NCBI RefSeq assembly: GCF_006716315.1
Contig: NZ_VFOV01000001.1
Location: forward strand, 3,054,501 to 3,118,500
Source of the DNA: Nocardioides albertanoniae
GTDB lineage: Bacteria > Actinomycetota > Actinomycetes > Propionibacteriales > Nocardioidaceae
Reading direction: 5' to 3'
Length of the DNA: 64,000 nt
This document shows positions 8,792-23,487 of the stretch, piece after piece (positions within the stretch are counted from its first letter, which is position 1; the number at the start of each line of letters is the position of its first letter). Position numbers and translations under genes: made by a program. The notes beneath the pieces were generated by a model. That model saw only the letters and a program-made list of their open reading frames with translations. It searched no databases and was not told where the DNA came from.

Positions 8792-9415
8792 TCACCGATA
8801 GAGCTCCTCGTCGATGCTCGCCAGGCTGGAGGGGTGGACCCGATCCCCGAGACCGTAGAAGTGCTGGAAGCTCATCATCAAGGGCCGCCAGCGGTCGGGA
8901 TCGATCCGGTGGGGATGACCGTCGAGGCGTAGCTCCGGAGCCACCCGCACCGCCGTCACCCCGACCTCGACCGCGACCAGCTTCGGCGCACCGAGATCGT
9001 GCACCGATGACACCCTGCCCTCCAGATGCACGGGACACTCGGCGACCGAGGTCGGAAGCACGGTCTCGGAGCCGTACGGCGTCAGCCCGGCACGGGCGTA
9101 CTTGTCCGCGACGAACGCGTAGCCGCGGGCAGCCTTGGCGGGCGAGAGCTGCGCACTGCCCGTGGTCAGCGCGAGCCGGTCGACCTGACCGACGAGGTCG
9201 ACGCTGGGGAGATTGATGACGATCTCGGGCCGGTCCCTCAGGTTGCGCGCGGTCTGCGACGACGCGCCGACCCCGAGCACAGCCGTACGCCCCAGCCAGA
9301 AGACCGACGACATCGGCATGAGGTTGGTGGTGCCGTCCTCGTTGAGCGTGGAGAGCAGGGCGACCGGGGTGCCGAAGTAGAGAATGGCCGGATCGATGTC
9401 GATGTGCGAGGTCAT
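8792..9415 (-). CDS. Flavin reductase family protein (FMN-binding split barrel)
   Basis: A 207-residue protein of the DIM6/NTAB flavin reductase-like family. The N-terminus ILYFGTPVALLSTLNEDGTTN and the following MSSVFWLGRTAVLGV match the FMN-binding split barrel, and NLRDRPEIVINLPS follows the pattern of its central strands. It probably binds FMN and could supply reduced flavin to a partner, but no partner gene is adjacent. The ATG at 9415 has TAGCTT 6 nt upstream and no ribosome-binding site, suggesting a leaderless message. It overlaps by 4 nt the shifted frame of the upstream macro-domain gene. Confidence 0.8.
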   Translation of the reverse strand: MTSHIDIDPAILYFGTPVALLSTLNEDGTTNLMPMSSVFWLGRTAVLGVGASSQTARNLRDRPEIVINLPSVDLVGQVDRLALTTGSAQLSPAKAARGYAFVADKYARAGLTPYGSETVLPTSVAECPVHLEGRVSSVHDLGAPKLVAVEVGVTAVRVAPELRLDGHPHRIDPDRWRPLMMSFQHFYGLGDRVHPSSLASIDEELYR

Positions 9416-9470
9416 GCCTCGAAGCTAGGGCGAGCCGGTGGCGACTTCCGGCGGATATCGGCCGCTGCAG

Positions 9471-10404
9471 TCAGCGCTCGGACTCGTGCCAGGAGCGCAG
9501 CCGGGCGATGATCGCGTCGATGGTGCCGTCCTGCACGACCTGGCCGAAGACGCCTTCGTTGAACCGCTCGCCACGGGGTGTAGACCGTCGCCAACCGGGC
9601 GGCGTCGGCCGCGGGAGCATCAGTCAGGCGAGCGATGTCGGAGCACAGCACGTTGCCGCTCATCCACTTGATCCAGTCGACGTTCGCCCCAGGAAGCGTG
9701 CGGTAGAGGCTGCTCACCCGGTCGCTGTATATCGGATACGGCCACTGGGTCACGCCGTCGGCGTTCTTCTCACCGCCGCCATAGGTGACCTCGCGATCCT
9801 GCTCCGTCATCGCATCGGCGATCTCGAAGAGCCCCTGCCACTGCTCGTGTGACACCTTCCGCAGCTCGGCCTCCACTTCCTCGTCGGACGGGTCCAGGGC
9901 CCCGCGAGCCCGGTCGAACGCGGCGTACGACTCCTCGTCGAAGAGCACGAACCTGACCTCCTCCACGGCTGTCTGCGCCCGCGCGGCCGTCCACAGCAAG
10001 ACGTACGCCGCCTCCTCGGTCGGGTAGCGATAGACACCCGTCGAGATCGCCGGGAACGCCACCGTCCGCGCTCCGACCTCGTCGGCGATCCGAAGCGACT
10101 CGCGTACGCACGACGCCAGCAGCCCGACGTTGTCCTGCCCCTCGTCGTAGACCGGGCCGACCGTATGGATCACCCACTGCGCCGGCAGATCACCCGCCGT
10201 CGTCGCGACCGCCTGCCCCGTCGGCAGCCCACCCCCGAGATGCCCCGCCCGCAACAGCCGGCACTCCTCGAGGATCGCCGGCCCACCGCGCCGGTGGATC
10301 GCCCCGTCCACCCCTCCCCCGCCCAGCAACGACGAGTTCGCGGCATTCACCACCGCATCGACCTGCTGCTCAGTGATGTCCCCGCGTACGACCGTGATCT
10401 CCAC
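9471..10404 (-). pseudogene. Macro-domain protein with unknown C-terminal domain, frameshifted
   Basis: The first 165 residues form a macro domain with EITVVRGDITEQQVDAVVNA, LLGGGGVDGAIHRRGG and AFPAISTGVYRYP, as in YmdB/MacroD-type ADP-ribosyl or O-acetyl-ADP-ribose hydrolases. A second domain of about 140 residues follows (TQWPYPIYSDRVSSLYRTLP, NVDWIKWMSG); it resembles DUF6508-type sequences, a tentative match. At the G-run 9575-9578 (CCCC on the coding strand) one base seems missing. The original frame runs into Arg-rich nonsense to 9412, while the next frame continues plausibly as GERFNEGVFGQVVQDG and ends HESER at 9471. Either a recent mutation or a sequencing error. Start is the GTG at 10404. 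Confidence 0.7.
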
Positions 10405-10500
10405 GCCCTCGACCCTATCCGCCTGATAGCGGCTGCGGCGGTCAGGAATTCTCGTCCAGCTTGGCCCGTGCTCGCGCATCCGAACGCTAACCTCGTAACC

Positions 10501-11403: not shown

Positions 11404-12671
11404 CAGCACGAACCCAGGACTGGGTTGCTCCGTGGAGCAGCCGTTCGACCGTGCGACTCGTTCTCATCGCCGAGATCGAACCGCTCGATCCGGCGTCCGA
11501 GACCAAGACGGCCAGACCTGTCGCTGACGTCCTGGATTTCGGTCGCCTCGCACCGCACGTCCTGCGCAATCGGGACGTCTTCGTGCATTGCCACACGGCG
11601 GCCTCGCACTCCAGGGACGAAGTCTCGTGGAAACGCGCGGCGCAAGTCGTGCACACTGATCGGGCTGTCGGATCCGTCTGGGCAACGCCTGGCGCTGGCG
11701 CAGACTTCTACGTGCAACTGGTCGATATCACGCCCTCCGACGGAATCCCCGACCTTGTCGCTGCCCTCGAGGACATGTATTACGGCGATCTGGTCTTGCC
11801 CGATCCGGGGATCCCGATGCGCCGCGTCGACGGCGGGCGTACGCATCAGATCGTCATCTTCTCCGATCCCGGCGACCGCGAGCTCACCGAGGACGAGATC
11901 CAGCGGCTGATCTATCGGGCCGACCTCGACGCGCGGCCCGAGTACAGCGACATCGTCCGGCCGACGGAGCTGAACCGTCGTGTCGGGCGCGGCGCGGCGT
12001 TGGGGCCGTTCGTCTCGGTCCTCTGGGGGCAGCAGGACTACATCGAGAACTGTGCCTTCTTGTCCGCCATCACCGGCGCCACGGCTTCAGTGGTGATGTT
12101 CGAGGCCCGAAGCGACCTGATGCAAGAGATCGCGGCAATCGGCAATCACCATGGCGACCGACTCGCCGCGGACGACACACGGGACCGACTCGACGGCGTC
12201 AACCGAACGCTCGCCAGCATCGAGAATCGGATCGCCCTGTGCATCGATGGCGTCTCGACGATCATGCCGTACGTTCCGTCCCTCCGCGTCGAGAGCTTCC
12301 ACCGGGCGCTCTTCACGGCCCTCGACACGGAGTTCAACCGCACTGCGCTACAGCGCCTGCTCGAACGGCTTCACGCCTTGGTTGATCTCGAGCAGGAGAT
12401 GTTGAGCTCACGAGTCGCCCAAGAGTCTGACGACCGCACATTGCGCTGGTCACTCTCGATCGGTCTAGCGTCGCTTGTCGCCGTCCCGTTCACCATCGTG
12501 TTTGGGTTCTTCGGGGCCAATGCGAACGAGATCGACTCGGCCAGATCGATCTTCTCGATGCAGTACTGGCCCATCTTCGCCATCGTCGGAGGCGCGACCC
12601 TCGCCATCGGCATGCTGCATCTGATGCTCTATCTGCATCACAAGCGAGAATCTCACAGACGCCGAAAATGA
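11400..12671 (+). CDS. Unknown protein with CorA-like C-terminal membrane domain
   Basis: A 423-residue protein. The N-terminal 300 residues are soluble and not recognised (segments AAQVVHTDRAVGSVW, FVSVLWGQQDYIENCAF, HHGDRLAADDTRDRLDGVNR). The C-terminus has two transmembrane helices around residues 345-370 and 385-410. They are separated by a loop containing GFFGANANEID, in the position of the GxN loop of CorA magnesium channels and preceded by a long helical segment as in CorA. It could be a CorA-derived channel or a membrane-tethered sensor. It is coupled by GTGA to the kinase gene. Its stop abuts the convergent operon's stop (TGATCA). Confidence 0.65.
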   Translation: MTARTQDWVAPWSSRSTVRLVLIAEIEPLDPASETKTARPVADVLDFGRLAPHVLRNRDVFVHCHTAASHSRDEVSWKRAAQVVHTDRAVGSVWATPGAGADFYVQLVDITPSDGIPDLVAALEDMYYGDLVLPDPGIPMRRVDGGRTHQIVIFSDPGDRELTEDEIQRLIYRADLDARPEYSDIVRPTELNRRVGRGAALGPFVSVLWGQQDYIENCAFLSAITGATASVVMFEARSDLMQEIAAIGNHHGDRLAADDTRDRLDGVNRTLASIENRIALCIDGVSTIMPYVPSLRVESFHRALFTALDTEFNRTALQRLLERLHALVDLEQEMLSSRVAQESDDRTLRWSLSIGLASLVAVPFTIVFGFFGANANEIDSARSIFSMQYWPIFAIVGGATLAIGMLHLMLYLHHKRESHRRRK

Positions 12672-13559
12672 TCAGAGATTCTCAACCCACGTTCGAATGT
12701 CGCCGACCGCGTCCTCCAGTTGACTGTTCAGCTGCTCAAGAGTTTCTTCAGCGTTCTGCACAACTATGTGGACGTCAAGCATCTCTGCACTCCCCACGAC
12801 TTGGCCGACGCGTTGCACGATGCCGTTCCATTCTTCAACTTCGCTCTTTGCGCCGACTACACGCAGACCAGCGCGCGAGACGGCCTCCGCAGCGCGAAGA
12901 GAGCTCTCCTTGACACCGTCGAGCAGTGAACTGTGCGAGCCCTCTCGCTTACCCAGCAGAGGGACGTCGACACGCGCCTTGCCCTGCTTGAGCTGGACGT
13001 ACTCTCGCGTCACTAAAGGTTGCCTACGCACATTCGCGTAAGCAGTGGCTACGCCAGCGAGAAGTCCGCCGCGATATCGATTTCGAGCTGTCCTTGAGTC
13101 CTTCCAGAACTCGATGGGTATCGCCCGCAAAGCCTCGAAAAGAGCGCCATAACCAACGTAATATCCTGGCCCGCGACCGCGGTCAGCTTCGAGTCCGTAA
13201 GCAACGTCTCGCAGACCGTCCAAAGCATCCTCAGAAAGGCCGCTCACCGGGTGGCCAATGCGGCGGACGAGAGCATCAGCTCCATCATATCCGGCTCTCC
13301 CCGCCGGGTCCGACCGCAACTGGCGAAGGCGTTCTTCCCATGCTTTCGCCTTGAGAAGGGGGCCGCCAACGAACGCGTTGAGGACGGTCAACTCGTCTGG
13401 CAACGACAATGGGCCGTCCGGCTTCGCCACCGTGACACCTAGCTTCTCGCCGTCTTTCTCAGAGAGTGCCGCCTTGACTCCAAGTTGAAGTGCCAGGCCG
13501 AGGTCATCGCGCTTCCTGCGCCGAAGCTCCCTGAGCTTGACGGCATCCGGATCCGCCAT
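12672..13559 (-). CDS. Hypothetical protein, last gene of the Hsp70-FtsK operon
   Basis: A 295-residue soluble protein, basic and helical at the N-terminus (LRELRRRKRDDLGLALQ). It has a central GPGYYVGYGALFEALRAIPI segment and a C-terminal helix ending LNSQLEDAVGDIRTWVENL. No signal peptide, membrane segment or known domain was seen. It starts 7 nt after the preceding gene and ends the operon. The DNA here looks richer in A and T, with codons such as ACT and TCA, than the core genes around it, which hints at an accessory origin. Function unknown. Confidence 0.7.
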   Translation of the reverse strand: MADPDAVKLRELRRRKRDDLGLALQLGVKAALSEKDGEKLGVTVAKPDGPLSLPDELTVLNAFVGGPLLKAKAWEERLRQLRSDPAGRAGYDGADALVRRIGHPVSGLSEDALDGLRDVAYGLEADRGRGPGYYVGYGALFEALRAIPIEFWKDSRTARNRYRGGLLAGVATAYANVRRQPLVTREYVQLKQGKARVDVPLLGKREGSHSSLLDGVKESSLRAAEAVSRAGLRVVGAKSEVEEWNGIVQRVGQVVGSAEMLDVHIVVQNAEETLEQLNSQLEDAVGDIRTWVENL

Positions 13560-13566
13560 CGGCTTT

Positions 13567-14181
13567 TCACTCCTTTACGAACAATTCGACCCTATGATGT
13601 CTAACGAGATGTTGCAGATCCCCCTGCAAGATCTGCTCAGCAAACGCCTTCTTTTCCTCTGGAACCGCCTCCGTGACGGCACGCAATATCTCGGCCAGAG
13701 AACTCGGGCTACTCCCCATTGACGACACAGCCATCAACGTCGCACCATATGCAACTCCTTGCGAATCTCCAGCCTCGAAAAGAGCCGGACCTCCCGAGGC
13801 ACTGAAAGGTTCTGGCTGCGATTTGGAGGGAACTGTCTCGGCGACCTTACGAATCTGGATATCCGCGAGCTCATCATCCGTCAACGGACGATTTCCAAAC
13901 TGCATCACGAGCCCGTTTTCGTTCAGTTCGTTGAGCTGAGTTCGCACGGCGTCGACGTTGCCTGACGACTCGACCCATTCGGCGAGTGCGAGTTCTGCGG
14001 GCGCTGTCGAAAGAATCTCGAGAAGCGCCGCGTACCCCGTCGGAAGCGGAAGCGACCCTGACCCAATTCGAAGGACCGCATGATCACTGGCGGTCTCAGA
14101 GGAAATGTCCACGGTCGAGTCCACGATCTCACTGCTGGATCTGACTCCCTCGTAGACGCCGATGGGGAGGTACCACGTCAC
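13567..14181 (-). CDS. Hypothetical protein with winged-helix-like segment
   Basis: A 204-residue protein of the Hsp70-FtsK operon. Residues 45-95 (LPTGYAALLEILSTAPAELA, then VRTQLNELNENGLVMQFGN) have the helix-helix-strand pattern of a winged helix, but this is only a visual impression. The C-terminal half holds a Ser/Gly-rich stretch MAVSSMGSSPSSLAEIL and a helix FAEQILQGDLQHLV. No catalytic motif is evident. It starts 14 nt downstream of the second small helical protein gene and is 7 nt from the next gene, so it is very likely cotranscribed. Confidence 0.65.
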   Translation of the reverse strand: MTWYLPIGVYEGVRSSSEIVDSTVDISSETASDHAVLRIGSGSLPLPTGYAALLEILSTAPAELALAEWVESSGNVDAVRTQLNELNENGLVMQFGNRPLTDDELADIQIRKVAETVPSKSQPEPFSASGGPALFEAGDSQGVAYGATLMAVSSMGSSPSSLAEILRAVTEAVPEEKKAFAEQILQGDLQHLVRHHRVELFVKE

Positions 14182-14195
14182 TTTCTTGTCCTTAC

Positions 14196-14459
14196 CTAGA
14201 GGCTATTGGCCCATGAAACGGCGGTTGCATCCGCAGCTTGAAGTTCACCGATCGTGTGCGCAAGCAACTCTGCGCAGGCGTTCAGGCTCGAGAGCGCCAG
14301 CCCCGGCGCCTCTTGACTCGTCGTGTAAGTCGTCCCTTTGAGCACTCGGATCGATTCCTCGAGATCGCCAATTGCCTCTGCCAGGAGACCACCGGCCTCC
14401 TCTGCGTGTCTGCTGCCTTCGGCGATCTCGCGGCGGACATCGTCGTACTCGTCCTGCAT
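14196..14459 (-). CDS. Small helical protein of ESX/WXG100 size (2)
   Basis: An 87-residue protein predicted by eye to form a two-helix hairpin: residues 1-40 (MQDEYDDVRREIAEGSRHAE, then LLAEAIGDLEESIRVL) and about 50-80 (GLALSSLNACAELLAHTIGE). They are joined by a KGTTYTTSQEAP turn. It lacks a WXG motif and a YxxxD/E tail signal, so it is not a standard WXG100 protein. It ends SWANSL, similar to the FADGL end of its upstream neighbour. Start at the ATG 13 nt after that neighbour's stop. Possibly a substrate or adaptor of the FtsK-type ATPase. Confidence 0.65.
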   Translation of the reverse strand: MQDEYDDVRREIAEGSRHAEEAGGLLAEAIGDLEESIRVLKGTTYTTSQEAPGLALSSLNACAELLAHTIGELQAADATAVSWANSL

Positions 14460-14472
14460 GACAATCCGACCG

Positions 14473-14733
14473 TCACAGTCCGTCGGCAAAGGTCTTCGAT
14501 GCATCAGCTGCCTTCATCAGCGTGGAGATAGCACCGTCAACAGCGTCCTTGGCCTGCTGGTAGATCTGAGCGATCTCCTGGTCCTTCCCAGTGGCGGTGT
14601 TGCCGATGGACGCAAGAACACCCTGGGTGATCGAGTCGAACGCCTCTTTGAACTCGGTCAGGGCCGAGGCTGTGCCCTCGGACTCGGTGACGACCTGGCT
14701 GAGGCCAGCCTTCGCCTCTTCGATGCTTGACAC
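14473..14733 (-). CDS. Small helical protein of ESX/WXG100 size (1)
   Basis: An 86-residue protein beginning VSSIEEAKAGLSQVVTESEG. A helix to about residue 43 and another from 53 to 80 (KDQEIAQIYQQAKDAVDGAI) are separated by an IGNTATG turn. It has neither WXG nor a canonical YxxxD/E signal. It ends KTFADGL, resembling the end of the next gene product. The GTG at 14733 is preceded by GGAAGGGGAT and was preferred over an upstream in-frame TTG. It sits 22 nt after the tail-anchored protein gene. Size, fold and pairing next to an EccC-like ATPase recall ESX pairs, but homology is not shown. Confidence 0.65.
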   Translation of the reverse strand: MSSIEEAKAGLSQVVTESEGTASALTEFKEAFDSITQGVLASIGNTATGKDQEIAQIYQQAKDAVDGAISTLMKAADASKTFADGL

Positions 14734-14755
14734 TGATCTATCCCCTTCCAAGAAG

Positions 14756-15292
14756 TCACATCACAACAATGATGATGACGATGAGCAGCAACAGGACGAT
14801 CCCTGCAGCAACAGCAATCAAACCTGCGTTCAATGTACGCGGCGGCGGCTGGTTACGAGCCGCTTCGAGAGCAGCACGGCGGGCCTCGAGGGCGTCGGCG
14901 GCGTCTCGGGCGGCTTCTGCCTGGTTGGCCGTGCGCACGCGGTGGTCTCCGATGGCACCGGCGAGGGAGACGACGGCACGGTCCTGGTCGTGCTCGGCCT
15001 CGGCGAGCGGACCGACAGCGCCCGCGATCGGCGCGACGGTGGCGGGGAGGCGGATGCCGAGGTCGGCCAGGTCTTCGGCGTCGAGGGCGCCGGCGGCTCG
15101 ACGGTAGGAACTCTTCGCGCGCGCCAGATGCTCGGCGACCCGCTCCGTGTCGGCGCGATGACGGCGGTCGATGGCTTCGGCCTGATCCCGGGCGGCGGCT
15201 TCTGCGGCACCGCGTGCTCTCGGGGCATCCGATACGGCGACCGCCAACCGATCGAGTGCTCCGAGGTAGCCCTGATACAGATTCTCAGTCAC
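14756..15292 (-). CDS. Coiled-coil protein with C-terminal membrane anchor
   Basis: A 178-residue protein. Residues 1-150 are Ala/Arg/Glu-rich and helical, with heptad-like stretches (AAEAAARDQAEAIDRRHRAD). A proline break (NQPPPRTLN) is followed by one hydrophobic helix LIAVAAGIVLLLLIVIIIVV that runs to the last residue. With no signal peptide, this is a tail-anchored topology with the coiled coil in the cytoplasm. The GTG start overlaps the FtsK gene stop by 8 nt. It could dock the soluble FtsK-type ATPase to the membrane. No family recognised. Confidence 0.7.
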   Translation of the reverse strand: MTENLYQGYLGALDRLAVAVSDAPRARGAAEAAARDQAEAIDRRHRADTERVAEHLARAKSSYRRAAGALDAEDLADLGIRLPATVAPIAGAVGPLAEAEHDQDRAVVSLAGAIGDHRVRTANQAEAARDAADALEARRAALEAARNQPPPRTLNAGLIAVAAGIVLLLLIVIIIVVM

Positions 15293-18110
15293 GGGAGACC
15301 TCCGCGACGAGGCGGTCTCGCGCATCCGCGTCGAGCGGCGCGTACGGAATCATCTTGCGCAGGCCCGCCGACGTGGCGGCGTCCTCGAAGAGGGCGCGGT
15401 GAGCGGTAGGGGTCCATTGGGTCAGTGGACCGTGGATACGTTGGGCGATGTCTTCGGTGCCCTGCAGAAGCAGGGTGCCGTCGAAGGGCGCGTTGCGAAG
15501 CAGGCCGAGGTGGGCCAGGAACGTGGCCGGGTTCGACCACCACAACAGTGGATGTACGCCGGCGACCGGTGCACTGCGGAAGAACCCCTGGATGGCTTTC
15601 TCCGGGGCCGGCGCGACGCCCTCCTTGATATCGAGGGGGCCGACGCGGTCGATGTTGAAGCCCAGCAGATACAGCGGCGGCGCCTCCGCAGATCGCTGGG
15701 GCAGCTCTTTGGCCGCCGCGCTCAACCAGCCGATGATCTCGCGCTGAGGAACGACCACGGGCTGGTGGCCCAGGCCGGTGAGCGTCTCGACCCAGCCGGG
15801 TAGGTCGCCGAGCTCGCGGTCGCGCCCCACCAGAGCGTCGAGGATGACGAACTCGGCGGTGCCAGGGGCGTGCTGGAGGGCGAGCGCGAGACCCGCCGCC
15901 TGCAGCACACCCATGGCAGCGTTTTCCGCGGCGGCGTCGAAGTCGTCACCGGTGGTGCCGGCGCCGATGATCGCGAGCGCACGGCCGGGCGATGCCTCCA
16001 GCGTGAACGCGACCGGGCTCTGGTCGACGGTCAGGGGGCGTCCGAGCGGGATCCGCGGCGCTCGCCCCGCAGCCGTCTCCTTCCGCAGCGCGCGCAGCGC
16101 CGGGATGTCTTCGAGCAGCGAGCCCGCGGCAGAGCCGTCGAAGACGTTCGGCGGCGCGATCACACCTGTGCCGTCTGATCCGTCGGCCCGAGATGCGCGC
16201 GCATGGAGCTCGTCGCGAAGCCGGGCGAGCTGGTCGTCGTCGGCGGCGGCGACCATGAGGCTCTGGTTGGCCTCGAACGCTCCGTACTCCTTGTTGAGCA
16301 CAGCCTCACCACGGAACCGGAGCCTCGCGGCCGCGTCGTTTCCCTGGCTGAAGGTGGCGACCGCTTCCTGTGGTGAGTTCTTCAGGCCGAGACGGATCGG
16401 GAACTGGGAGAAGACACCCTGGGACGAGCCGAGCAAGGTGCTGATGCCGGAGATCGACTGCGAGGCGAGGATGACGTGGACCCCGTAGGAGCGGCCACGG
16501 CGTACGACCTGCTCGAGCAGCTTCGCCGCCTGGGCGCCGACCTTGTCACCACCGTCGTCGAGCAGCAGGTGGAACTCGTCGACGATCAGCACGATCCGGG
16601 GCATCCTCGCCTCCGGGTTGGCCGCGCGGTAACGGGAGATGGAGTCGCCGAAAGGCTTGAACAGGCGAGCGCGGCGTACAAACTCCGATTCGAGGTGGGA
16701 CAGCACCGCCAGGCCGAAGTCCTGGTCGGCCTCGATGCCCAGCACGCGCGCATGCGGCAGGAACTCGGGGCTCCCGGGGGTGGGTGCCATCGGATAGAGG
16801 GTGACACCCTCCTTGAAGTCGAGCAGGAACAGCTCGACCTCGTCAGCAGCGTAGCGAGCCGCGATGGAGTAGATGATCACCTTGAGCAGGTTGGACTTGC
16901 CCTGACCGACCGCGCCGGTGATCAGCGCGTTGTGCTTCTGCTCGCGATCGTCACCGAAGGTGATCTCGACCGGCTTCGGCCCCGCCTTGCCGACGGCGAA
17001 CGTGATCCCCTCCGCCGAGGAGGTGGCCCATCCGGCATCCGGCTGGATGTCGGCGAAGGGTACGACGGGGAGCGAGATCTTCTCCGCCGCGACGGCCACT
17101 TCGCCGGCCACCTGGCGAGCCTGATCGGGGCTGATCTGCGGGATCAGGAGCTTCAGGTCGGGGCGACGTCGCCACACCAGGTCACCGGCCCCGCCGCCCG
17201 CGCTGGTGTCTTCGAGGTCGAAGGACTCCCCCAGGCCCCGGAGCCGCTCGAGGTCGAGCCAGTCAGGAAGCTCCAGGTCGGGCGCCACCTGGAAGACGAA
17301 CGAGATCCCGTGTCGCGGTGCCACGTCGGCCAACAGCATCAGCCGCTCGTGCTGCGCCTCGGCGACCGAGTGTGGGTAGTCGTGGAGGGTGACCAGGTGG
17401 AATCGCTCGACGGACATGCCCAGCCGCGCACGGTGCTCGATCAGATCGCCGGGCACGCCCTGGAGCACGTCGCCGATGCGCGCGACTGTCGTGGTGAGCT
17501 CATCGATGAGGGCGTCGAGATCACGCGGAGTCTGGGTGTTGCGTACGAGGCCCTGGTCGACGTTGTTGAGACCGACGAACGGAGCCAGCGGGTTGCCGAG
17601 GCGCGGGTCGAAGGACCACAGGGCGAGGTCACCAGGTGTCGTGCCCAGCAGCGCTTCCGCCTGGATGTTGCGGGCGAACGCGTCGGTCACCGCGGTGTCG
17701 CCGACCACGGTGACGTGGCCATAGCCGAGCAACGGAACCACCAGGGGCACGTCGAGGTCGGCGTTGACCGATGCGTCCTCCCGGTCGGGTCCGATCAGTC
17801 CGAGCTCGATGTGCTCGGCCGCAGCCAGTGCTCCGGCCCTGCTCGCCGCCCGCAGGTCGGCCGCGGCCTCTCGAGCCGCGATGTGGGCGGCCGTGATCGT
17901 GTTGGTCGCTTTCGTCGCTGCGATCGCGGCGTTACGTCGCGCCGTGGCTCGGAGGGTCTGCTGCTCGCCGTCGTAACGCTGCTGGAGCGCGTCACGATCG
18001 GCCTGCAGCACCCCGAGCACGCGGGCGTGGCTCTGCTGCAGGAACGCGGCTGCTTGAGCCACCGGGCCAACCGGCCGGCTCTGGGGAGAGTCCGTCGTCG
18101 GGTCGCTCAT
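15285..18110 (-). CDS. FtsK/SpoIIIE-type ATPase with tandem (one degenerate) motor modules
   Basis: A 941-residue ATPase with no membrane helix. Residues 20-110 are a coiled coil. The motor domain follows at about 370-640 with Walker A ITGAVGQGKSN (near 400), the FtsK segment LFLLDFKEGV, Walker B RIVLIVDEFHLLLDD (near 510) and RGRSYGVHVILASQS. A second module at about 680-930 keeps the strand pattern but has a broken P-loop (LAIIGAGTTGDDFD) and a Walker-B-like AEFVILDAL. Intact plus degenerate motors in series recall EccC/EssC of type VII secretion. The usual FtsK DNA-reading gamma domain is not evident. Its ATG abuts the J-like gene's stop with no gap. Confidence 0.85.
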   Translation of the reverse strand: MSDPTTDSPQSRPVGPVAQAAAFLQQSHARVLGVLQADRDALQQRYDGEQQTLRATARRNAAIAATKATNTITAAHIAAREAAADLRAASRAGALAAAEHIELGLIGPDREDASVNADLDVPLVVPLLGYGHVTVVGDTAVTDAFARNIQAEALLGTTPGDLALWSFDPRLGNPLAPFVGLNNVDQGLVRNTQTPRDLDALIDELTTTVARIGDVLQGVPGDLIEHRARLGMSVERFHLVTLHDYPHSVAEAQHERLMLLADVAPRHGISFVFQVAPDLELPDWLDLERLRGLGESFDLEDTSAGGGAGDLVWRRRPDLKLLIPQISPDQARQVAGEVAVAAEKISLPVVPFADIQPDAGWATSSAEGITFAVGKAGPKPVEITFGDDREQKHNALITGAVGQGKSNLLKVIIYSIAARYAADEVELFLLDFKEGVTLYPMAPTPGSPEFLPHARVLGIEADQDFGLAVLSHLESEFVRRARLFKPFGDSISRYRAANPEARMPRIVLIVDEFHLLLDDGGDKVGAQAAKLLEQVVRRGRSYGVHVILASQSISGISTLLGSSQGVFSQFPIRLGLKNSPQEAVATFSQGNDAAARLRFRGEAVLNKEYGAFEANQSLMVAAADDDQLARLRDELHARASRADGSDGTGVIAPPNVFDGSAAGSLLEDIPALRALRKETAAGRAPRIPLGRPLTVDQSPVAFTLEASPGRALAIIGAGTTGDDFDAAAENAAMGVLQAAGLALALQHAPGTAEFVILDALVGRDRELGDLPGWVETLTGLGHQPVVVPQREIIGWLSAAAKELPQRSAEAPPLYLLGFNIDRVGPLDIKEGVAPAPEKAIQGFFRSAPVAGVHPLLWWSNPATFLAHLGLLRNAPFDGTLLLQGTEDIAQRIHGPLTQWTPTAHRALFEDAATSAGLRKMIPYAPLDADARDRLVAEVSRD

Positions 18111-19268
18111 CTAGAGCCCCGTCCTTGCCCAGGCATCGCCGAGAACCTTGCGGTTCAGCTGCCACTGTTGCGGATAGACCCGCAGGAAGAGAGCCGCGGC
18201 GAGCCCGATGTTGAGCACGAACGCGGCCAGGATCCCGAGGGTGTCGCCGAAGATCAGCGAGAGGATGAGCCACGAGAGCCAGATACCGATGACGACCCAA
18301 CCGAGCACCCAGAGCACCAGGCTGCCCGTCGGCGCCATGAAACGGCGGGACCTGGCAGCGACGAGATCGGCACGCAGCCCGTCGCGGTGACGGTGGACCG
18401 AGTCGCTCAACGGAGCGAGTGCCTCGATCTCACCCAAGCGGCTCTCGATGTGGTCGACCTGCCGCTTGGAAGCGACATAGGTGGCGCCGCTCTGGTCGTT
18501 GCTCATCGCTGCCTTCGAGTCGGCGATCAGCACCCGGGCGAGGGCGTCGCGAGCAGCCTGGGCACCGGCGTGCTTGACGACCATCTGGCGAGCTTCGACG
18601 ACGGCGTCCTTCGGTCGGTTCTGGTCGATCAGGGTGTAGGCGACCTGCGCGTCCCACGTCGGGTCGTCGGAGGAGAGATCGGCTGCGGCGCGGTAAGCGT
18701 CCTCGGCCTCGCTGTGGCGCCCCTCGGCGCGGAGGACATCGCCACGGAGTCCGGGGCCGGCCGCGTCGCCGGGCATCAGCTTCATCGCCTCGGTCGCCGC
18801 GAACTCGGCGTCACGGAAGTCGTCCTGAGCCAGCGCCGCGCGAGCCCGCAGCTGCCATGCCCGCGGATCGCCGGGGTTGGCGTGGGTGGCTTCCTTGGCA
18901 GCACCAGCGGCGTTGCGCGCTTCACCGGCGTCGAGGTAGTCGGCCGCTGCCTTGAGCCAGTCCTTCTGCGCACCGCGCTGCCGACTCTGCGGCGCAGACG
19001 CCTCGCTCTCGCGGTCCGCCGGCGCCGCAGACGCCTGGTGAGCGGCCAGCTCGGCGTCGTACGCCCTTCTCGACCCGGAGCTCTCGAAAGCTGCTTCCGC
19101 CTCGGCGATCCGGGCGAGCATCTGTTCGGCCTTCGAGCGTTGCTCGAGGCTCGGTGAGCCGGCTTGCTGGCGGTAACGGCCGCGGGTCTTTCGGACCGCA
19201 GCGCGGATCGTCTGCTCGTCGGCAGACTGCTCGATCCCCAACAGCGCGTAGAAGTCGATGAACGTCAT
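18111..19268 (-). CDS. J-like domain/TPR protein with two C-terminal membrane helices
   Basis: A 385-residue protein. Residues 1-75 match a J domain (DFYALLGIEQSADEQTIRAA to FESSGSRRAYDAE), but the HPD tripeptide is absent: the loop reads RYRQQAGS at 31-38. Residues 100-245 form about four TPRs (DAGEARNAAGAAKEATHANP, ALAQDDFRDAEFAATEAM). A helical linker leads to two membrane helices at about 312-338 and 342-364. It likely sits in the membrane with J and TPR parts in the cytoplasm, next to the Hsp70 encoded upstream. Without HPD it should not stimulate Hsp70 ATPase in the classical way. J-domain identity rests on pattern and context. Confidence 0.75.
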   Translation of the reverse strand: MTFIDFYALLGIEQSADEQTIRAAVRKTRGRYRQQAGSPSLEQRSKAEQMLARIAEAEAAFESSGSRRAYDAELAAHQASAAPADRESEASAPQSRQRGAQKDWLKAAADYLDAGEARNAAGAAKEATHANPGDPRAWQLRARAALAQDDFRDAEFAATEAMKLMPGDAAGPGLRGDVLRAEGRHSEAEDAYRAAADLSSDDPTWDAQVAYTLIDQNRPKDAVVEARQMVVKHAGAQAARDALARVLIADSKAAMSNDQSGATYVASKRQVDHIESRLGEIEALAPLSDSVHRHRDGLRADLVAARSRRFMAPTGSLVLWVLGWVVIGIWLSWLILSLIFGDTLGILAAFVLNIGLAAALFLRVYPQQWQLNRKVLGDAWARTGL

Positions 19269-19311
19269 CCCGAGGTCTACCCCACCCTTCGCAACCCGGA
19301 CTCTGAGTTCG

Positions 19312-19341
19312 AACCTACTTGCCGATACGCGCCTGCGTCAC
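19312..19341 (-). promoter_or_regulatory. Possible internal promoter before the J-like gene
   Basis: On the minus strand GTGACG (complement of 19336-19341) lies 18 nt from TAGGTT (complement of 19312-19317), about 44 nt before the J-like gene start. The 109-nt gap after the Hsp70 gene is the largest in the operon, so a second promoter is plausible. The same TAGGTT hexamer occurs at 21017-21022 upstream of the Hsp70 gene. Confidence 0.3.
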
Positions 19342-19377
19342 CGAACACGATGAACTCGATCGGCGCAGGTGCCAACC

Positions 19378-20970
19378 TCAATTCACCGTGATGGCACGGA
19401 TCTTTGCCTCCGCCAGCTCGACCTGCGCCGCGGTCAGATTGGCGACCCGCTCGACCTCGAAGGTGCCCAGGGACCGGTTGGCGGTCAGGTCCTCGAGCTC
19501 CACGAAGACAGTCTGGTCGACGTCGTAGTGATAGGTGATGCGCAACGGCGCCCCCTGTGGGTATGGCGGGAGCGAGAGCATCGACCTGCCGATCTCGACC
19601 ACGAACGCCGGGTCCGTGTCGTCGCCCTGCGTGACCCGGACCTCGACCTGCGTCTGGCTGTCGTACGTCGTACGCACCTGGCGGCTCTCCTCGGCCGGGA
19701 CCTTCGTGTTGCGACCGATCACCACGAGGTTGGCCTCGCGGTCGTGCTCGGCGTCTTCGAGCACGATGACCCCGAGCGCCTGAGAGGTGACATCGCGCAC
19801 GGTCACGTCGCGTCCGCTGAACGGCGCCGGCCCGAAAGTCTGCTCGGGTGCCTGCTCGGGATGCCGCGTCTCGTCCGGGGCCGCGCCTTGCCCGGATGGC
19901 TGTGTGGACTGCTCGATCGCGGCCTGGATCGCGGCGCCGAGCGCGACCGCCTCGTCAGGGTTGATGTCGGTCGCCGGCTTCTTGCCCGAGAGGCTCGTGA
20001 CCATCTCCCGGATCATCGGCATGCGGGTCGACCCGCCGACGAGAAGCACCTCGTCGACCTGCTTCCAGCCGATCCTGCCCTGGTCGAGCACGTCCTCGAC
20101 CAGCTCACGGGTGCGGTTGAGGAGCGATCTGCACGCCTTCTCGAAGTCTGTGCGAGACACCTTCACGCGGTAGGGCTTGCCTCCGATGGTGACCGTCACG
20201 TTCGTCGACGCCACGGTCGTCAGCGTGCGCTTGGCCATCTCCGCCCGCTCGCGGAGCAGCGCCAGCGCGTCCATGTCGTCGAGCACACCGGTCGCTCCCT
20301 GCTCGGCGAGCTCGTCGGCGACGTACTGGATCAACGCGTTGTCGAAGTCGAAACCGCCGAGGTTGCGATCGCCGTCGGTCGCGACGACGTCGAAGGTCGT
20401 GTCCTGGATCCGCATCAGGGTCACGTCGAAGGTGCCGCCACCGAGGTCGTAGACGAGCACGGTGGCGTCGCGGGTCTCGTCCAGACCGTAGGCCAACGCT
20501 GCGGCCGTCGGCTCGTTGAGCACCCGCAGCACGTTGAGTCCGGCGATCTTCCCCGCCTGCCGGGTCGCGGTGCGACGGGCGTCGTCGAAGTAGGCCGGCA
20601 CGGTGATCACCGCATCGGTGACGTCGGTATCGAGAGCGAGCTCGGCATCCTGCTTGAGCCGTTTCAGGATGATCGCGGAGACCTCTTCAGCGGTGTAGGT
20701 CTCCCCCGCCGAGGAGTCGAACCGCCAGTGCGGGTCGCCCATATGACGCTTGACGAACTGCACGACGTCGAGCGGCGCCGTCGCAGCCTGGTGCTTGGCC
20801 ATCGCACCGACCAGTGGCTCGTCGCCGCTGCCGAAGTCTTGGAAGAGCACCACCGACGGGGTGGTCGCGTCACCGTCGGCGCTCGGCAGGATCACCGGCT
20901 CCCCGGTCGATTCCAGCACCGCCGTCGCCGAGAACGTCGTGCCCAGATCGATCCCGATCGCTCGCCCCAT
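19378..20970 (-). CDS. Hsp70 (DnaK-like) chaperone lacking the lid domain
   Basis: A 530-residue Hsp70. The ATPase domain is complete: GRAIGIDLGTTFSATA, VLVYDLGGGTFDVTLM and VDEVLLVGGSTRMPMIREM. After a Pro/Gln-rich linker (about 370-400) comes a beta-type substrate domain (DVTSQALGVIVLED to RITYHYDVDQTVFVELED). The protein ends at ITVN about where the alpha-helical lid of DnaK would begin; DnaK is usually 610-640 residues. The ATG at 20970 was chosen because GGGAGGAG precedes it by 6 nt. No HAIR or CIRCE element is visible upstream, so it is probably not the housekeeping heat-shock gene. It heads the operon with J-like and FtsK-type proteins. Confidence 0.88.
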   Translation of the reverse strand: MGRAIGIDLGTTFSATAVLESTGEPVILPSADGDATTPSVVLFQDFGSGDEPLVGAMAKHQAATAPLDVVQFVKRHMGDPHWRFDSSAGETYTAEEVSAIILKRLKQDAELALDTDVTDAVITVPAYFDDARRTATRQAGKIAGLNVLRVLNEPTAAALAYGLDETRDATVLVYDLGGGTFDVTLMRIQDTTFDVVATDGDRNLGGFDFDNALIQYVADELAEQGATGVLDDMDALALLRERAEMAKRTLTTVASTNVTVTIGGKPYRVKVSRTDFEKACRSLLNRTRELVEDVLDQGRIGWKQVDEVLLVGGSTRMPMIREMVTSLSGKKPATDINPDEAVALGAAIQAAIEQSTQPSGQGAAPDETRHPEQAPEQTFGPAPFSGRDVTVRDVTSQALGVIVLEDAEHDREANLVVIGRNTKVPAEESRQVRTTYDSQTQVEVRVTQGDDTDPAFVVEIGRSMLSLPPYPQGAPLRITYHYDVDQTVFVELEDLTANRSLGTFEVERVANLTAAQVELAEAKIRAITVN

Positions 20971-21092: not shown

Positions 21093-21551
21093 TCACTCGA
21101 GCTCCAGCGCGACCATCGGCAGCCCTTGGACCCGATGACCGACAGCGTCCTCGATCGCCCCGCGCAGGCGCTGCCAGGCTTTCGGGTGCGCGGCCTGATA
21201 GCGGCCGAGTGCCGCGGCCGACTCCTCCTCCGAGAGGAACCGTGCGTGAGCCGCGACGTCGGTGCGGTAGCCGCTGCTGACACGGCAGGAGGGGTTGGCG
21301 AGGAGGTTCTGATACCACTGCGCCCCGGTGCCGAAGCCGCTGACGATGACGATCTCGTTCGCGCTGGGACGCTCGACGACCTCGAGGCACACATACCGTG
21401 GCTCGCCCGAGCGACGGCCGATGTGCTCGAGCATCAGCATGCGCTCGCCGAGGAGTCTGCCGGCGCGATGGCGATAGAGCCAGATCGGTGCGCGCACGAC
21501 CGCGCGGGTGCGCAGCAACCGGGAACCGACAGAGTCGATCAAAGAGGTCAT
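21093..21551 (-). CDS. Nitroreductase-family deazaflavin-dependent oxidoreductase
   Basis: A 152-residue protein of the deazaflavin (F420)-dependent nitroreductase/quinone reductase type. It has the family pattern LIDSVGSRLLRTRAVVRAPI, MLMLEHIGRRSGEPRYVCLE and the nucleotide-binding IVSGFGTGAQWYQNLLANPS. These enzymes use reduced F420 to reduce quinones or nitro compounds. The start at 21551 gives MTSLIDSVG; a few residues of in-frame extension are possible. It is divergent from the DUF4345 gene. F420 use is inferred from the family only. Confidence 0.8.
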   Translation of the reverse strand: MTSLIDSVGSRLLRTRAVVRAPIWLYRHRAGRLLGERMLMLEHIGRRSGEPRYVCLEVVERPSANEIVIVSGFGTGAQWYQNLLANPSCRVSSGYRTDVAAHARFLSEEESAAALGRYQAAHPKAWQRLRGAIEDAVGHRVQGLPMVALELE

Positions 21552-21594
21552 CTCATGGAGACTACCCATCGAAACCGTCTGCGAAGGAGCCATC

Positions 21595-21960
21595 GTGGCC
21601 AGTGTGACCATCGCCGTGATCGGCGTGTTCTTACTCGCCATGGGCGCCTACGCCCTGGTCGCCCCGGCCGCCCTCGCGGCGCCGTTCAACCTGACCGCAC
21701 GCACGCCCGAGGCCCGCTCGGAGATCCGGGCCGTCTACGGAGGCTTCGGGGTCGCCATGGCCGCCGTGCTCGGTCTCGCGGCCCTCGACGTCGGCGACAT
21801 CCGCACGGGCGCGGTGACGACCGTCGGCCTCGCGCTCATCGGCATGGCCGCCGGCCGGCTCGTCTCACGACTCTTCGACCGGGCCGTACGCCTCTATCCC
21901 ATCTGGCTCTACTTCGGGATCGAGCTGGTGGCGGGCGCCGCGTTGCTCCTGTGTGCGTGA
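21595..21960 (+). CDS. DUF4345-like integral membrane protein
   Basis: A 121-residue protein with four hydrophobic helices: VTIAVIGVFLLAMGAYALVA, a central GFGVAMAAVLGLAAL, VTTVGLALIGMAAGRLVS and the C-terminal WLYFGIELVAGAALLLC. The IRAVYGGFG segment between helices 1 and 2 is typical of DUF4345 proteins. The GTG at 21595 is preceded by GAAGGAG, 6 nt away. No function is known. It converges on putP with only 18 nt between the stops. Confidence 0.7.
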   Translation: MASVTIAVIGVFLLAMGAYALVAPAALAAPFNLTARTPEARSEIRAVYGGFGVAMAAVLGLAALDVGDIRTGAVTTVGLALIGMAAGRLVSRLFDRAVRLYPIWLYFGIELVAGAALLLCA

Positions 21961-21978: not shown

Positions 21979-23487
21979 TCAGGCGCGCGCAGCGTCCTCG
22001 CGCGGGTCGTCGGCGTCGACCAGCCGGACGGCCTCGTCGAACTCGGCCTCGATCGCCGGGTTGGCCCGATAGGTCACCAGGCTGACGACGACGGCGACGA
22101 GGGTGTTGAGCGCGAAGCCCGGCACGATCTCGTACATCTGCGAGCTCAGCGCGTTGATATTGCCCCACACCACGACCGTTACCGCGCCGGTGACCAGACC
22201 GGCCAGCGCGCCGGCCGCGGTGAGCTTCCGCCACCACAGTGACAGCAGGATGATCGGGCCGAAGGAGCCGCCGAAGCCGGCCCAGGCGTAGGCGACGAGG
22301 TCGAGCACGCTCCCGGTCTTCTGCCACGCCAGCACGGCGGCGATGACCGAGACGGCCAGCACAGCCAGCCGTCCGAACAGCACCAGCTGCGACTGCGACG
22401 CGTTGGTCTTGAAGACCGCCTTGTAGAGGTCTTCGACCAGCGCCGAGGAGGTCACCAGCAGCTGGGAGGAGATCGTGCTCATGATGGCCGCGAGCACCGC
22501 CGCGAGCAGCACACCGGCCACAAGCGGGTGGAAGATGATCTGGCCGAGCGCGATGAAGACCGCCTCCGGGTCGGTGAGCTCGGCGTCGGGGTTCTGCCGG
22601 TAGTAGGCGATGCCCACAAGGGCGGTGCCGACGGCGCCGAAGAGGCTCAGCAGCATCCAGCCGATGCCGATCCGCCGAGCCGCGACCGCCTCACGTGCCG
22701 TACGCAGTGCCATGAACCGCACGATGATGTGCGGCTGCCCGAAGTAGCCCAGCCCCCAGGCGAGCGCCGAGAGCACACCGAGCGTGGTGGCCCCTTCGAG
22801 CATGCTGAGGTGGTTCGGGTCGACCTCCCGGATGCTGTCGGCGGTCGATCCGATCCCGCCGGTCACGAAGAGGCCCACCACCGGCACCGCGATCAACGCG
22901 AGCAGCATGATCGTGCCCTGCACGAAGTCGGTGTAGGAGACCGCGAGGAAGCCTCCGAAGAGCGTGTAGGCGACCACGACAGCGGCCACCACCAGCATGC
23001 CGGTGTGATAGCTCGCGTTGAAGGAGCTCTCGAAGAAGACGCCGCCGGCGACCATGCCGGAGGAGACGTAGAACGTGAAGAAGACGACGATGACCAGCCC
23101 GGAGGCGACCCGGAGCAGGCGCGAGCCGTCCTTGAGCCTGTTCTCCAGGAAGCTAGGCACGGTGATCGAGTTGCCCGAGACCTCCGTGTAGGTGCGCAGA
23201 CGCGGCGCCACGACCTTCCAGTTGAGCCAGGCGCCGACCGTCAGGCCGACCGCGATCCAGCCCTCCACCAGCCCGGTCGCATAGATGGCACCAGGCAGGC
23301 CCATCAGCAGCCACCCCGACATGTCCGAGGCGCCGGCGCTCAACGCGCTCACCATCGGACCGAGGTCACGACCACCCAGCATGTAGTCGTCGAGATTCGT
23401 GGTGCGCCGATACGCCCAGGCGCCGATGGCGAGCATCGCGAGCAGGTAGGCCACCAGCGCGATCATTTGGTAAGTCAGGTCAGACAC
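21979..23487 (-). CDS. putP: Sodium/proline symporter
   Basis: A 502-residue sodium:solute symporter of the PutP branch with about 13 membrane helices. Diagnostic segments are DDYMLGGRDLGPMVSALSAG, ASDMSGWLLMGLPGAIYATG, SFLENRLKDGSRLLR and LGYFGQPHIIVRFMAL, as in PutP. The Ser/Thr-rich IMSTISSQLLVTSSALVEDL holds sodium-binding positions. It imports proline for nutrition or osmoprotection, consistent with the osmoprotectant importer elsewhere in the window. The C-terminal 30 residues are acidic. It is monocistronic, with a 172-nt upstream region. Confidence 0.92.
   Translation of the reverse strand: MSDLTYQMIALVAYLLAMLAIGAWAYRRTTNLDDYMLGGRDLGPMVSALSAGASDMSGWLLMGLPGAIYATGLVEGWIAVGLTVGAWLNWKVVAPRLRTYTEVSGNSITVPSFLENRLKDGSRLLRVASGLVIVVFFTFYVSSGMVAGGVFFESSFNASYHTGMLVVAAVVVAYTLFGGFLAVSYTDFVQGTIMLLALIAVPVVGLFVTGGIGSTADSIREVDPNHLSMLEGATTLGVLSALAWGLGYFGQPHIIVRFMALRTAREAVAARRIGIGWMLLSLFGAVGTALVGIAYYRQNPDAELTDPEAVFIALGQIIFHPLVAGVLLAAVLAAIMSTISSQLLVTSSALVEDLYKAVFKTNASQSQLVLFGRLAVLAVSVIAAVLAWQKTGSVLDLVAYAWAGFGGSFGPIILLSLWWRKLTAAGALAGLVTGAVTVVVWGNINALSSQMYEIVPGFALNTLVAVVVSLVTYRANPAIEAEFDEAVRLVDADDPREDAARA

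Follow-up and report, generated by a model that had tools for sequence, protein, structure and literature searches.

The 64,000-nucleotide (nt) window analysed here, from Nocardioides albertanoniae (RefSeq assembly GCF_006716315.1, contig NZ_VFOV01000001.1, positions 3,054,501 to 3,118,500), contains at 12672..20970 a locus of eight open reading frames (ORFs), all on the minus strand, which combines an Hsp70-type chaperone with an ATPase related to the motors of type VII secretion systems (T7SSs). Read from its upstream end, the locus encodes g8 (19378..20970, 530 amino acids (aa) from its ATG), a lid-less Hsp70 made up of a DnaK nucleotide-binding domain and the beta part of the substrate-binding domain (SBD-beta); g7 (18111..19268), with a J-like domain lacking the histidine-proline-aspartate (HPD) motif, tetratricopeptide (TPR) repeats and a C-terminal hydrophobic segment; g6 (15285..18110), an EccC/EssC-like motor with a coiled coil and three ATPase-fold domains; g5 (14756..15292), a coiled-coil protein of 178 aa with a C-terminal tail anchor; g4 (14473..14733), a predicted WXG100-like helical hairpin of 86 aa without WXG; g3 (14196..14459), a second small protein of 87 aa; and two orphans in the cargo slot, g2 (13567..14181, 204 aa) and g1 (12672..13559, 295 aa). 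An earlier note, made from the sequence alone, had given the gaps from g8 to g1 as 109, 0, -8, 22, 13, 14 and 7 nt, and with its start codons both the gaps and the common strand are exact by coordinate arithmetic. This spacing makes a single transcript likely, and a scan with a model that may not suit the host detected no sigma-70-like promoter in the region. The note also took the eight genes to be one functional unit, which is likely, as the set recurs in relatives.

The assignment of g8 as a lid-less Hsp70 is borne out by a Pfam HSP70 match (E 1.1e-123) covering a full nucleotide-binding domain, and by a C-terminus that ends right after the SBD-beta block; this block is conserved in nine relatives, which likewise stop without a helical lid. 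The canonical DnaK of the same genome lies elsewhere (699 kb). The description of g7 as a J-like TPR membrane protein holds in part: it matches TPR_2 (4.1e-7), matches DnaJ below the cut-off (1.4e-4) and carries a hydrophobic segment at residues 344-362, but its J domain lacks HPD, as does that of every family protein compared (22/22, the window's included), one of which has the letters HPD upstream of the J domain. Loss of this motif makes the usual stimulation of Hsp70 by a J protein doubtful, and judging from its domains g7 may act as a scaffold. GrpE is present in 8 of the 11 relatives' loci (the window's among the 11) in which Hsp70 adjoins the motor, and in a plasmid copy, the Pfam match being 2e-15 in locus L035 and 4.3e-6 in L098; it was not found in the window, L038 or L107. 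Two of these loci show peculiarities in their chaperone genes. In L085 (5308-6904) the hsp70 gene is broken, its middle part lying on the opposite strand through inversion or misassembly, with no good inverted repeats flanking the reversed part, and its product was searched in pieces. In L035 (1286-4069) the place after the hairpin gene, where a toxin would be, is taken by three additional J-like proteins, one of them with its J domain on an uncharacterised stretch of ~200 aa.

The motor g6 matches the Pfam FtsK/SpoIIIE model above its cut-off (3.2e-18), TrwB and HerA more weakly, and T7SS EccCa at 2.6e-25, far below that model's cut-off. Such matches could denote an FtsK/TraD-like pump for DNA translocation, an identity that we regard as highly improbable and have set aside, because EccC and EssC rank over FtsK by both sequence and fold: the top match of a PDB profile search is the EccC cytoplasmic region (4nh0, 1.1e-44), and Foldseek, queried with an AlphaFold2 model built from an 18-row alignment (mean predicted local distance difference test (pLDDT) score 84; a helix at residues 16-91 followed by three alpha/beta regions), gives EccC of Thermomonospora as its best match (3.9e-30 over 960 columns), ahead of EssC and then FtsK. 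The hairpin partner and the toxin-like proteins in relatives also speak against a DNA pump, and no relaxase or conjugation gene occurs among the eight ORFs (Pfam, NCBIfam). Where the earlier note saw a soluble EccC-like tandem ATPase, solubility and kinship stand, with no membrane segment above threshold, but an active tandem does not: a Walker A motif and a DEF Walker B are present only in the middle of the three ATPase-fold domains. A single Walker A is likewise found in 29/30 motors of the clade described below; the thirtieth row represents only one part of a split gene. For comparison, the two canonical EccC-like genes of the same genome, which lie with an EccB gene (4.82 Mb) at C1 4.816-4.845 Mb, have three Walker A motifs apiece, which makes it probable that the genome also has a canonical ESX system.

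How a motor of this kind might reach the membrane is suggested by its neighbour. The gene product g5 was correctly recognised as a tail-anchored coiled coil, with a hydrophobic segment at residues 159-177, and the gene next to coil-bearing motors, in the position of g5, ends in the same hydrophobic tail in 7/7 relatives examined. In f77-type relatives the gene next to the motor has several hydrophobic segments (5/5). The N-terminal coil of g6 (residues 16-91) is missing from some clade members. After nine motors of 776-831 aa comes an ORF of hairpin size, in some cases extended at its front, that lacks hydrophobic segments; those of the nine that are in the alignment (L086, L087, L089, L090) start without the coil, as does L104. 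The co-occurrence of the coil with a membrane-anchored next gene suggests that the coil may dock on the anchored protein. Several variants of the motor region were also seen. In L087 (5419-6024), L088, L089 and L090 an in-frame front of ~115 aa, without a hydrophobic segment, precedes an 84-aa small protein and may be either a longer form of that protein or a separate gene. In L099 (8154-11811) the motor gene is in two parts with a 371-aa ORF between them, perhaps an insertion element. A conjugative plasmid of Rhodococcus sp. AH-ZY2 (NZ_CP126457.1, L273) encodes an FtsK/SpoIIIE protein of 1322 aa, and behind it come small genes and TerD genes, an arrangement reminiscent of the Ter-linked mobile T7SS.

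The two small proteins had been described as ESX-sized and helical. Their sizes (86 and 87 aa) agree with this, and a WXG100-like hairpin fold is predicted for g4 (14473-14733) only; the relation of g3 to g4 is one of size and position. The g4 family consists mostly of 86-aa relatives adjoining a motor, with a GT(A/S)xGxD-type turn and no WXG motif. AlphaFold2 models g4 as a helical hairpin (pLDDT 93; helices 3-43 and 49-85), and every one of the 15 best PDB matches found by Foldseek is a chain of EsxB from Bacillus anthracis (probability 0.98-1.00, E 0.1-0.2, none reaching E 0.001). The predicted fold of g4 is thus WXG100-like without the motif.

In relatives, the slot after the hairpin gene is variable, and in the window it is occupied by g1 and g2, which would be the cargo here, g1 being a possible substrate. 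For g1, no family was found above cut-off (Pfam, NCBIfam) and no credible relative in sets of 80 and 81 genomes (its own in both) or in plasmids; a weak match in one genome (G239, 4.7e-4) falls in an unrelated protein and was rescored to 0.025. The idea that g1 is a reversed-order toxin with a C-terminal hairpin, prompted by similar-looking ends of g1, g3 and g4, found no hhalign support. For g2, no family above cut-off and no plasmid match was obtained, and a PqqD-like match is weak (0.011).

More can be said of the cargo in relatives, which has the pattern of polymorphic toxins as judged from sequence, with a common N-terminus and an exchangeable C-terminus. Proteins of L085, L098, L105 and L272 share one family of N-terminal domain, of ~95 aa and without a Pfam match (hhalign leave-one-out E 1e-10 to 4e-12 for L085, L098 and L105; 4e-10 for L272 against these three), and differ in their C-termini. 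That of L085 is calpain-like (4e-13, over the cut-off), that of L098 ADP-ribosyltransferase-like (1.6e-4, below the Pfam cut-off, with a weak NCBIfam match as well), and L105 and L272 have, by eye, a third type in common along with the next gene; most of the toxin-like C-termini could be assigned to no family. A second, related toxin group is found in the f77 loci and L036. Immunity genes often sit after the toxin, and in six f77 loci a family of 150-160 aa is represented after the toxin gene by between one and three copies, not all of them complete. The C-terminus of the f77 toxin, which may resemble CdiA-type nucleases, gave nothing below E 0.69 against solved structures. A profile of the three N-termini from L085, L098 and L105 matches the 86-aa hairpins at 8e-6, colinear over 78 columns, and the f77 toxin group at 9e-7, and nine comparisons with helical controls gave P 0.033 or worse. 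Since only L105 matches the hairpins well on its own (6.6e-7), and L272 matches the f77 group weakly (0.003), homology between the toxin N-terminus and the hairpins is likely but not settled. Assignment of the L096 N-terminus to the same trafficking domain was not supported by hhalign. The note had suggested the two small helical proteins as substrates of the motor, which they may be, but the likely cargo in relatives is toxins, with downstream candidate immunity genes in some of them, and the most likely role of these loci is the killing of competing bacteria. In a Lachnospiraceae metagenome-assembled genome (MAG), the gene after Hsp70-GrpE-J (L110:13213-14253) encodes a protein that is C-type lectin-like and seems to have a membrane segment.

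The earlier note had proposed a search of other genomes for the same association, and the gene grouping is real and conserved. At a motor threshold of 1e-30 or better, the motor occurs in 53/391 genomes of the order sample, the window's genome being the only one of its genus among these 53, and in 8/396 of the phylum sample (the window's included); it is thus rare in the host's own genus. Neighbourhoods were taken from 23/53 of the order-sample genomes and 8/8 of the phylum sample (own genome included in both), and from the best 80 of 129 loci found by an alignment-based motor scan of named genomes; a scan of genome contigs with the single motor sequence gave no match. In all, 114 stretches, some ended by contig ends, were scanned with family hidden Markov models (HMMs), those for the small proteins being built from clade members, so that absence elsewhere is uninformative. 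A single tree was computed for 110 motors (quick IQ-TREE, SH-aLRT support only, with a long-branch warning that includes the window's branch). It omits L164, which covers the contig stretch of L098 again, as well as L174, L175 and L161, which are truncated or otherwise unusual, and L099 is represented by one half of its split motor. Hsp70 and J genes adjoin the motor in 11 of the 110 loci (the window, L035, L038, L085, L098, L103, L104, L105, L107, L108 and L110) and in the plasmid copy. The note would have been refuted by a lack of such neighbours in other genomes, which is not the case. All 11 fall in one clade of 30 rows (support 100); of the other motors in it, 8 have, among the chaperone genes, only J/TPR, and 11 have an 86-aa hairpin and no chaperone found. 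Hsp70 is thus beside the motor in 11/30 rows within the clade versus 0/80 outside (Fisher p 1.3e-7, with rows treated as independent), and at least 5 gains or losses of the linkage are needed on the tree.

The linked set occurs in three or more gene orders and in two phyla, Actinomycetota and Bacillota. The order Hsp70-J-(GrpE)-motor is found in the window, L035, L085, L103, L104 and L105, the order J-Hsp70-(GrpE or hairpin)-motor in L038, L098 and L107, and the order motor-small-small-Hsp70-GrpE-J in the Bacillota MAGs L108 and L110. Named members include Nocardia higoensis (L105), Microlunatus flavus (L164), and Acidimicrobiales, Ruminococcaceae and Lachnospiraceae MAGs. The plasmid copy (L272), in Rhodococcus pseudokoreensis, is annotated as Hsp70 - TPR - grpE - FtsK/SpoIIIE - 203 aa - 86 aa - 272 aa - 134 aa, on a plasmid typed as non-mobilizable with TniQ and recombinase genes nearby; phage records gave one weak partial match. 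One subclade (L082, L086-L090, L099, L106) has the J/TPR gene and a shorter motor, with no adjacent Hsp70 found, and four consecutive small genes (84-96 aa) where resolved (L082, L086, L090, L099, L106).

On this evidence we lean towards reading the locus as a type VII-like export system in reduced and probably mobile form, served by an Hsp70 machine of its own. It would be an offshoot of the mobile WXG/FtsK-type exporters that took on a dedicated Hsp70 system, set apart by WXG-less hairpins and probably delivering polymorphic toxins. In this reading, the cargo would carry or bind a WXG100-like hairpin; the TPR/J-like protein would hold the lid-less Hsp70 at the membrane, where Hsp70, reset in relatives by the dedicated GrpE, would keep cargo unfolded or soluble and pass it on; the motor, which has a single active site among its three ATPase-fold domains, would bind the hairpin while its coil docks on the tail-anchored protein; and ATP use by the middle domain would drive export. 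More tentatively, the locus could stand for a type VII-like secretion class of its own, where lid-less Hsp70, an HPD-less membrane J/TPR scaffold and GrpE feed hairpin-tagged polymorphic toxins to a soluble EccC motor that has one active site and is brought to the membrane by the tail-anchored coiled coil. If this is true, the locus represents a secretion system with an Hsp70 cycle built in. The proposed export system would also add a chaperone-coupled route to toxin delivery by Gram-positive bacteria to their competitors. To our knowledge, how chaperones hand cargo over to EccC/EssC-type motors is largely an open question, and a naturally minimal system in which one single-site motor is accompanied by an Hsp70, a J-like protein and, among relatives, also GrpE would make this hand-over directly testable. 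The locus family further points to several uncharacterised families of toxin-like proteins and candidate immunity proteins.

Several observations weigh against an export machine with an integral chaperone. A channel protein is not present at the locus, and the window has no recognisable toxin, g1 and g2 being orphans. Hairpin similarity is partly generic, with VIA-align scoring FadA, ESCRT and other hairpins like EsxEF, and a sequence search of the PDB with the g4 profile brings up no WXG100 protein; g3 against the g4 family gives a non-significant hhalign value of 0.08. Single toxin N-termini match the hairpins weakly (L085 0.075, L098 0.004, L272 0.011). As for the linkage, 19/30 clade motors have no Hsp70 found beside them, the clade rows are mutually related and partly hand-picked, and at L139, outside the clade, a weak match to Hsp70 (1e-20) lies 6.5 kb away from the motor; this match was not counted and would make the outside figure 1/80. 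The main argument, however, is the portability of the chaperone module, which also occurs without the motor. A search with the lid-less SBD-beta, which separates lid-less forms (1e-30 or better) from canonical DnaK (mostly ~1e-20), placed lid-less Hsp70 at 26 places in 18 genomes among the matches listed (samples of 396 and 391 genomes). A motor is present in 5/25 of the neighbourhoods and absent from the other 20, of which 13 contain J/TPR and GrpE. These motor-less loci (L252-L271, e.g. L254, L266, L268 and L269), which have neither motor nor hairpins, come mostly from f78, an actinobacterial family with as many as three copies in one genome, and otherwise from four genomes of f77 and from G484. 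The stand-alone trios suggest that Hsp70/J/GrpE is a portable module, repeatedly kept or acquired by one motor clade. Together with the lack of an adjacent Hsp70 in all 7 f77 clade motors examined, they invite the explanation that the chaperone genes travel with the T7-like system and do not serve it. We consider this quite unlikely, given that the linkage is concentrated in one motor clade, that the grpE and ftsK ORFs overlap in L035, L103 and L104 and in L085 and L098 lie just 5-6 nt apart, and that the set is kept in differing orders, across the two phyla and on a plasmid.

The proposed export system, with its own Hsp70 machine, has several partial precedents, and the earlier statement that no described system has this set is too strong, as related sets appear in PMC3482391, PMC11090510 and PMC4978471. 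Footnote 6 of PMC3482391 describes a mobile T7SS whose YueA-like ATPase has three domains, the middle one active, and a passage of PMC11090510 describes EssC-like ATPases linked to CoCoNuT systems, with N-terminal coiled coils, no transmembrane segment and two accompanying WXG100 proteins, one without the motif. As far as these passages go, the locus resembles them in its three HerA/FtsK domains of which only the middle is active, its N-terminal coiled coil in place of FHA and transmembrane parts, its small putative hairpin partners and its mobile or patchy distribution. It differs in that its clade is separate in the tree from motors with WXG proteins, and in having hairpins without WXG, a lid-less Hsp70, an HPD-less J/TPR protein, usually GrpE, a tail-anchored coiled coil and toxin-like proteins sharing an N-terminus.

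Comparison with the canonical T7SSs (ESX with EccC; T7SSb with EssC) and with types T7SSc-T7SSj, given in the parts of PMC11217815 consulted as WXG100 plus EssC, reveals a shared EccC/EssC-type ATPase, hairpin proteins and an LXG/Lap-like cargo logic; the ATPase of the locus has no membrane segment, and there is no WXG motif. EccB/D/E and EssA/EssB/EsaA are absent from the eight ORFs (Pfam, NCBIfam), in agreement with the earlier note as regards EccB/D/E-like partners, and no kinase, FHA or ubiquitin-like TsxB domain, the T7SSc-T7SSj partners, occurs in these ORFs. The terms DnaK, Hsp70, DnaJ and GrpE never occur in the main text of PMC11217815. The polymorphic toxins of T7SSs (LXG, WXG), as treated in passages of PMC3482391 and PMC11217815, share with the relatives' cargo a conserved N-terminal trafficking domain, an exchangeable C-terminal toxin and, in several loci, a small next gene; the N-terminal domain here is distinct, and is present in relatives but not recognised in the window. 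A chaperone of this type also appears in a Helicobacter pylori gene set, for which table rows and a passage of PMC4978471 list a 'DnaK homolog, WxG100 family' and an FtsK with a nuclease as 'WXG100 secretion system', with DnaK homolog, WXG100 family, FtsK and HNH nuclease in neighbouring co-occurring clusters. Beyond these rows, no description of an Hsp70-coupled T7-like system was found among titles, abstracts and passages, a scope outside which lie subscription papers and preprints.

Some precedents point to the inside of the cell. Section 29 of PMC7159879 reports Hsp70, GrpE and DnaJ-TPR genes in GAP1-N2 conflict systems, which resemble the locus in their dedicated set of Hsp70, GrpE and DnaJ or TPR proteins, some of them carrying a second Hsp70 form without the peptide-binding domain. 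According to the passage of PMC11090510, CoCoNuT defence loci include ATPases of the related EssC-like kind, and PADLOC matches the ATPase core of g6 to defence ATPases (mad8 best at 1.4e-17, SspH at 5.7e-16, then several HerA, and also DndH and mad3). Along with a motor that lacks a membrane segment, a patchy distribution and carriage on a plasmid, these likenesses would suit an intracellular conflict or anti-phage system, in which Hsp70/J/TPR senses or restrains toxic effectors that the soluble ATPase remodels or releases without export. We judge this unlikely, though a serious contender. Exported polymorphic toxins are usually recognised by just this combination, one N-terminal domain shared by proteins whose toxin-like C-termini differ, and two components of the locus have hydrophobic anchors. 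The PADLOC matches to defence ATPases are limited to the core, those elsewhere in the window being weak (a JetC coiled-coil match at 1.4e-4, PDC-M61B at 0.006 and a weak Hsp70 match), and no known defence system fits the whole gene set. Unlike the GAP1-N2 systems, the locus has an EccC-like motor and hairpins, and no GTPase or GAP1 gene was found among its eight ORFs, two upstream ORFs and ten further window ORFs.

Codon composition varies along the operon. The GC content at third codon positions (GC3) is 0.90 for Hsp70, 0.85 for J/TPR and 0.86 for the motor, falling to 0.73-0.76 for g5 and g4 and 0.62-0.68 for g1-g3 (g2 0.62, g1 0.625), compared with 0.865 (sd 0.069) for 35 other long ORFs of the window, chosen by a caller that favours high GC3. 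The drop toward g1 suggests that the cargo end may have been acquired more recently than the machine end. The genes around the operon look ordinary: upstream lie an F420-type reductase (21093-21641) and PutP (21979-23487), and downstream, convergent, a gene with a weak CorA-like match below cut-off (11451-12671). The F420-type gene has counterparts in 3 other genomes among 59 of the genus (own counted in the 59), in none of which the window's other neighbours lie within ~10 kb of it, so an insertion boundary could not be set. Close to the locus, at 9412-10479 of the window, lies a fusion of a macro domain with DUF6508.

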